From the IMG/VR virus record IMGVR_UViG_3300044732_001049, positions 1 through 37,408 of that record: a stretch of DNA of 37,408 nt. One strand, written 5' to 3'. The notes under the pieces are model-generated. The model saw nothing but the letters and a program-made list of their open reading frames with translations. It was not told where the DNA came from and did not search any database. Both the position numbers and the translations under genes were made by a program. This DNA is from a virus. Position 1 is the stretch's first letter; every line of letters begins with the position of its first letter. Shown here one piece after another: positions 11,248-11,861 of this stretch.

Positions 11248-11393
11248 AATTAAGATTAGAAGTTACAAAAGATTATTTAGAGGTTTTACCTTCAATAAGT
11301 ATTTATAGACAACGAATGGGCACATATTGGAGGTTAAGATTATCTTTTGCTTGGCTAATTTTTGCTTTAACATTAGAAATAAGATGGAAGTAA
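11244..11393 (+). CDS. Hypothetical basic protein, 49 aa
   Basis: The 49-residue frame is coupled on both sides. Its start overlaps the preceding stop as ATGA and its stop lies ten bases inside the RusA gene. The product is basic with a hydrophobic C-terminal third (LSFAWLIFALTLEIRWK), perhaps membrane-associated. I cannot assign a function; its support is its position and the tight overlaps. Confidence 0.45.
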   Translation: MKLRLEVTKDYLEVLPSISIYRQRMGTYWRLRLSFAWLIFALTLEIRWK

Positions 11394-11734
11394 TCTACGG
11401 CTTAGTGCCAAGTAAGTCTAACTGCTATCGCTTTGCAGGTAAGTTCATGTATAAGACCAAGGCACTAAAGGATTACGAAGAAAGTTTCTTAGAGCAATGT
11501 GTATTTTACAAAGACAAAAACATTGAAGGTAATTTAAGGATAGAGGTTACTGTCTATTATCCTAACCGAAAATCAGATATTGATAACTCACTTAAGGTAT
11601 TGTTGGACATGATGCAAAAGGTAAAAGCATTTGACAATGATAATAAGGTAGCTGAGATTGAAATATTTAAACGATTGGATAAAGAGAACCCAAGAGTAGA
11701 ATTTGAGATTAAACAAGTAGATTATATTATTTAG
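11384..11734 (+). CDS. rusA: RusA-like Holliday junction resolvase
   Basis: Although the frame is open from 11327, homology begins at the ATG at 11384 (MEVIYGLVPSKSN), giving 116 residues, the usual RusA length. The conserved block PNRKSDIDNSLKVLLDMMQK (60-79) has the catalytic aspartates (D65, D67, D75), and KAFDNDNKVAEI (81-92) follows. RusA dimers cut four-way junctions, so in the phage it would resolve recombination intermediates or branched DNA before packaging. The last two bases of its stop codon are the first bases of the tRNA-like element. Confidence 0.88.
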   Translation: MEVIYGLVPSKSNCYRFAGKFMYKTKALKDYEESFLEQCVFYKDKNIEGNLRIEVTVYYPNRKSDIDNSLKVLLDMMQKVKAFDNDNKVAEIEIFKRLDKENPRVEFEIKQVDYII

Positions 11735-11861
11735 TCAGGTGGCGGAAAGTGTACCCTGTTTTTACGGGAAGTACATAGGTAGACGCTAATTGTTGGTTAG
11801 AATGGAAACTTACACCACAAAAATTAATCTATTCATGCTGGTTCGAATCCAGCCCTGACTG
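11733..11861 (+). tRNA. tRNA-like element with D-loop hairpin insertion
   Basis: A perfect 7-bp acceptor stem (AGTCAGG 11733-11739 with CCTGACT 11854-11860) and a perfect T arm (GCTGG-TTCGAAT-CCAGC, 11837-11853) are clear. The D arm has tRNA-Leu-like pieces: GGCGGAA (11741-11747) and GGTAGACGC (11778-11786), with a GCG/CGC stem. Between them lies a hairpin insertion (TGTAC/GTACA plus CCTG/CGGG, 11750-11775). The 50 bases between the D and T arms do not form a normal anticodon arm; at best a 3-bp stem presents GGU. The total length is 129 nt and no CCA is encoded. It may be a decayed tRNA, an interrupted tRNA or a tRNA mimic. Confidence 0.55.

Follow-up and report, generated by a model that had tools for sequence, protein, structure and literature searches.

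A tRNA-shaped element beside a phage rusA gene points to a class of modular, non-decoding RNAs

What kind of RNA keeps the outer arms of a transfer RNA (tRNA) while carrying a hairpin in its D loop and no anticodon arm? The question is raised by the virus record IMGVR_UViG_3300044732_001049, analysed here as a single stretch of 37.4 kilobases (kb; hereafter the window), in which inspection of the sequence places a 129-nucleotide (nt) tRNA-like element at positions 11733–11861, adjoining the 3′ end of rusA. An earlier note on this DNA had delimited the element correctly and proposed selection for its outer tRNA shape. We find that it is a member of a large modular class, beyond what that note had seen, and sequence comparison, mostly among metagenomic contigs, indicates that this is a conserved class of non-decoding RNAs and not a broken tRNA. 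We are far more certain that the class exists and does not decode than we are of the function proposed for it, action in trans on host factors.

All parts of the element lie on the plus strand. Its acceptor strands, AGTCAGG (11733–11739) and CCTGACT with the discriminator G73 (11854–11861), pair at all seven positions (11733–11739/11854–11860), and the T arm GCTGG-TTCGAAT-CCAGC (11837–11853), with its TTCRA loop, pairs at all five (11837–11841/11849–11853); both had been described as perfect, and are. Alignment to the Rfam tRNA model and comparison with homologues place the T arm, the run of U8 (11740), G9 and the 5′ strand of the D stem (GCG; together 11740–11744), and G18G19 (11778–11779) with the 3′ strand of the D stem (GGTAGACGC, 11778–11786), the stem pairing 11742–11744 with 11784–11786. 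The 5′ acceptor strand is placed by sequence, by the same model and by compensatory changes in homologues, the 3′ strand by sequence and homologue comparison. As previously noted, the D arm resembles that of tRNA-Leu and is split by a two-part hairpin, with the D stem and G18G19 present on either side of the insert. The hairpin (GUGUACCCUGUUUUUACGGGAAGUACAU), which enlarges the D loop in the interval from A15 to G18, comprises 6 base pairs (bp), an AA bulge and 5 bp with a UUUU loop, and extends over 11749–11776 instead of the 11750–11775 first proposed. No CCA is encoded.

The 50 bases between the D and T arms (11787–11836) contain no anticodon arm (5 bp, 7-nt loop, U33). The earlier note had seen this absence; it had not seen that the middle has a conserved fold of its own. 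ARAGORN, one of the checks then suggested, finds no tRNA anywhere in the window, and no Rfam family exceeds its gathering score there: the tRNA model gives the element 27.4 bits (E = 0.0011), just below the gathering score of 29, in an alignment with two skipped runs, one of 34 bases in the D loop and one of 35 within the anticodon region. Neither ARAGORN nor Rfam matches transfer-messenger RNA (tmRNA) at the element. The predicted fold has z = −2.36 and beats 195 of 200 shuffles. The window has a single T arm with a perfect 7-bp acceptor upstream and U8 after it, and none of 200 dinucleotide shuffles produces that combination.

Pattern scans of IMG/VR recover more than 200 distinct related elements, near-duplicate contigs having been merged on sequence alone. 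A first pattern, consisting of a fixed Leu-type D arm, 10–40 extra D-loop bases and a fixed T loop, matched 47 IMG/VR stretches and yielded 37 distinct complete elements, the window's included, with the acceptor left free and two of the five T-stem pairs (G–C) fixed. The acceptor pairs at all seven positions in 30 of these 37, against 9.6 with shuffled 3′ strands, and the T stem at all five in 36; the random loss of pairing that the earlier note had named as the sign of decay is not seen. The acceptor AGTCAGG/CCTGACT is used by 18 of the 37. A second pattern, made up of that T arm and the 3′ acceptor strand only, finds the signature in at least 120 viral stretches of IMG/VR; a matching 5′ acceptor strand lies no more than 230 bases away in 134 of 146 distinct elements, and in 127 of them it is followed by U8. 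Most elements found in this way have no D insert, yet have a long and varied middle. Some members lie within tRNA arrays, and others are solitary like that of the window. Across 16 loci, Rfam reports tRNA and tmRNA families only, and some relatives without a D insert exceed the tRNA cut-off.

The elements of this class cannot decode. Of 145 AGTCAGG elements, 6% have a canonical anticodon arm, as do 6% of 78 D-insert elements; shuffled middles reach the same rate, whereas 74% of 35 other tRNA units at the same loci, taken as a control, have one.

Is the inserted hairpin under selection as RNA? Class-1 D inserts have the form GN7-UGU-N7C, and across 20 aligned variants 220 of 220 cells are paired, with 30 cells changed on both sides, and five of the eight hairpin pairs show such double changes; none of 500 shuffles matches this pairing, and 37–60% of cells pair when the alignment is slid. 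Compensatory change in the insert was the test of function set in advance and, together with the intact outer stems of homologues, it supports the earlier view of selection for the outer shape over decay. At the A15–G18 site there are at least five further types of hairpin. A search for the window's own D hairpin among 2.9 million contigs, made without its tRNA context, found it in identical placement in 13 others; each of the 14 copies, counting the window's, is set in the D loop of an element with the AGTCAGG acceptor (GGTCAGG in one). A free mobile hairpin element was considered and ruled out, since every copy is inside a tRNA-like D loop and varied genomic sites are not seen. Across contigs, this hairpin is joined to about nine different middles. 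The unrelated D hairpins of L036, L042, L012 and the window (11749–11776) all have, above a short basal stem, a bulge of 2 nt on the 3′ side, which may be a shared recognition feature.

The middle of the element is structured as well: a helix of 7 bp and a second, pseudoknot helix can be fitted to it. It recurs in L040/L049 (one contig), L061, L009 (copies L011 and L015) and L075, four lineages whose acceptors vary and whose D loops take four other forms. In the five sequences with window-type middles, the 28 proposed pairs are paired in 140 of 140 cells, which 0 of 500 shuffles reach; eight of the 28 are changed on both sides, in the acceptor, helix S2 and the T stem. Two of these compensatory pairs back S2 (GAAUGGA, 11800–11806, with UCUAUUC, 11828–11834). 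The other helix, S1, would join UGUUGGU (11791–11797, one U bulged) to ACCACA in the S2 loop (11814–11819), which are complementary in all five sequences; with this helix, the window middle would likely form an H-type pseudoknot. A second middle family (L006, L036 and L217/L223) also covaries, in three sequences only. In L058 (2814–2958) and L060 (4318–4484, minus strand), the middle contains a second T-arm-like hairpin (GGGTTCGAGTCCC, TGGTTCGATGCCA), resembling nested tRNA halves.

Clustering gives 27 groups of shared middles, a few of which are ordinary tRNAs, and several are joined to different D segments. The same mosaicism is found at the rusA site. This gene (11384–11734, plus strand) encodes a Holliday junction resolvase (Pfam RusA, E = 7.4e-14), and, as the earlier note had pointed out, its stop overlaps the element, the last two bases of the TAG at 11732–11734 being the element's first two, AG. 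In L049, where the rusA DNA is 95% and the downstream DNA 87% identical, the gene is followed by the same middle with an unrelated D hairpin; in L051, with 92% identity downstream, by a different tRNA-like body with another acceptor and D stem; and in L053 by a third kind of element. Four relatives have no element after rusA. The AG of the element completes the TAG stop in the window, L049, L051 and L053, and the element-free relatives end in TAA or TGA. These comparisons indicate that the D hairpin and the middle are exchanged independently between phages, like interchangeable parts. Furthermore, the middles of L233, L234, L236, L237, L238 and L176 share a sub-module, GGTACTTCAAACGG...CCTACC, in differing surroundings, so exchange within the middle may also occur.

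What might such an RNA do? We favour, at about even odds (a probability of roughly 0.5), a role in trans against host factors, in which a non-decoding, tRNA-shaped phage RNA would be the stable chassis on which structured modules are exchanged. Comparison shows that the acceptor/T end and elbow of a tRNA are retained (T arm, acceptor and D stems, U8, G18G19) and the anticodon arm is lost, and that the modules are of two kinds: a hairpin, placed in the alpha region of the D loop, and a fold of the middle, in the window a likely H-type pseudoknot. RNase P, the 3′-processing enzymes, CCA addition and EF-Tu mainly read the acceptor/T half of a tRNA, and leucyl-tRNA synthetase reads the anticodon little. 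Because that half is kept, processing of the element is plausible, and perhaps also charging in members with A73; cleavage by RNase P, 3′ processing and CCA addition by host enzymes would leave a stable RNA of about 130 nt. As the alpha region of the tRNA D loop is exposed, a hairpin there need not disturb the elbow; it would be directed away from it, with the L shape preserved. The modules would then act against the host by binding one of its factors, most likely as decoys or inhibitors, with tRNA-acting or RNA-sensing defences and translation factors as candidate targets. Such action would explain the fast exchange of modules, the host-free distribution and the missing linked protein: no Pfam or PHROGs family occurs in more than three of 113 neighbour proteins, and a 22-nt signature of the class does not occur in the 396 genomes sampled from the phylum of a Sphingobacterium metagenome-assembled genome. 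It is therefore probable that the RNAs act on their own during infection by the phage. Three of the five matches of a genome scan, in Chloroflexi/Sphaerobacter bins, look from their sequence like ordinary tRNA-Leu caught by the pattern, and were rejected. A more tentative extension is a combinatorial anti-host system, in which interchangeable RNA modules on the non-decoding chassis would block host defence or translation proteins and be swapped as hosts change.

Several points weigh against a trans role so conceived. S1 is invariant across homologues, and complementary sequence without change makes the pseudoknot a proposal. A single charging route shared by the class is doubtful, because the window has G73 and 161 of 198 ARAGORN-negative elements (81%) have A73. 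Because the search patterns hold some D-arm, T-loop or acceptor bases constant, they bias the breadth and frequencies given here. Finally, the accessory location and diversity of the elements also fit regulatory RNAs or selfish cassettes.

A regulatory antisense RNA ranks next, although we consider it unlikely: loops of the middle would pair with messages of the phage or the host, with the tRNA body there for stability and processing only. tRNA bodies do stabilise inserted RNAs, and the middles, which vary greatly from phage to phage, include long single-stranded stretches, but they keep their helices through compensatory change, and the longest perfect complement elsewhere in the window, a comparison confined to the phage genome, is 11 nt and not above shuffles. 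We find it improbable that the tRNA shape is processing punctuation, a cut site that splits an early polycistronic message after rusA with the inserts as passengers. The element shares its strand with the early genes, and at four loci the rusA stop ends in its AG; cleavage at 11732/11733, however, would strip that stop from the rusA mRNA, four relatives manage without an element, many elements reside in tRNA arrays, and a cut site requires neither conserved D hairpins nor pseudoknots.

Lower again in our ranking is the reading of the elements as selfish or neutral cassettes, in which recombination between conserved arms would spread tRNA-like units and their hairpins with no benefit to the phage. 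Strong mosaicism, tandem units and arrays (L033, L084) and the swap of element type between conserved flanks in L051 are what this predicts, but the window's D hairpin never occurs outside a D loop among the contigs searched, and compensatory change implies selection on the RNA fold. An interrupted tRNA, an option raised by the earlier note, is very unlikely: the D hairpin and part of the middle would be introns whose removal gives a working tRNA-Leu, as the Leu-like arms around the insert and the introns found in tRNAs of other lineages might suggest, yet L075, with the window's middle and no D insert, still lacks an anticodon arm, such arms occur at the shuffled rate, and the unrelated hairpins at one site have no common junction. 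As for a decaying tRNA relic, to which the missing anticodon arm and the position of the element as sole tRNA-like gene in the window might point, covariation refutes it: pairing is kept with compensatory change across lineages, and nearly every member keeps its outer stems intact.

If the RNAs are made and active as proposed for a role in trans, the tRNA fold would be a natural carrier for exchangeable RNA parts, as it is in the artificial design of engineers. The class would also account for some of the odd gaps that phage tRNA arrays show and for some of their 'undetermined' tRNAs; a large set of structured RNAs would become accessible to experiment, and RNA-based phage strategies against the host may come to light.

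Comparison with known systems places the class in the broad kind of tRNA-like non-decoding RNAs, as it fails the defining features of both tRNA and tmRNA. With bacterial tRNA-Leu (class II) it shares the D arm (TGGCGGAA...GGTAGACGC), T arm, U8, G18G19, 7-bp acceptor and, in most members, A73; it differs in the D-loop hairpin, the long varied middle, the missing anticodon arm and, in the window, G73, and as far as known its members are neither charged nor decoding. In tmRNA, too, a tRNA-like acceptor/T end is kept and the anticodon arm is replaced by other RNA, including pseudoknots, but tmRNA (RF00023) has no D stem, whereas the element has a D stem with a hairpin and only about 130 nt, and Rfam does not call the elements tmRNA. 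Separate tmRNA genes are carried by some element-bearing phage contigs (L010, 3001–3396, and L017, 2914–3304, by ARAGORN; L202, 134–549, by Rfam). The stable RNAs C and D of phage T4 and the 'undetermined' tRNAs of arrays, compared here by description only, are likewise tRNA-like phage RNAs beside tRNA genes with no known decoding role; we know of no D-loop hairpin modules or module exchange in them. In murine gammaherpesvirus 68, a viral tRNA-like unit also carries hairpins, but these tRNA–microRNA transcripts have them after the tRNA, and the element has them inside the tRNA body. GOLLD and ROOL, structured RNAs of phages whose function is unknown, frequently lie close to tRNA islands (PMC12286853); they are far larger and not tRNA-shaped, and Rfam gives no match for the element.

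The class is not described in Rfam, the annotated phage records searched or the open-access literature. INPHARED phage records hold no close match to the element, to class 1, 2 or 4 D modules or to the T arm; a match in Roseobacter phage CRP-804 was dismissed, having no tRNA fold, and a scan of Tenacibaculum phages pT24 and Gundel_1 gave tRNA-like units of ordinary length only. The window's terminase is closest, in part, to those of Flavobacterium phages 1/32 (47%) and vB_FspS_tant8-1 (42%), at about 60% coverage, which makes a Bacteroidota host likely, although not proven. In the Fibrobacter-associated L020, L022, L026, L038 and L070, a second tRNA-like unit, with a normal D arm and a 90-nt middle, precedes the D-insert element. 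Unannotated elements of a similar general kind are present in two public phage records, GenBank MW202828 (L231, 523–629) and LR756501, from a 735-kb phage (L232, 2917–3026).
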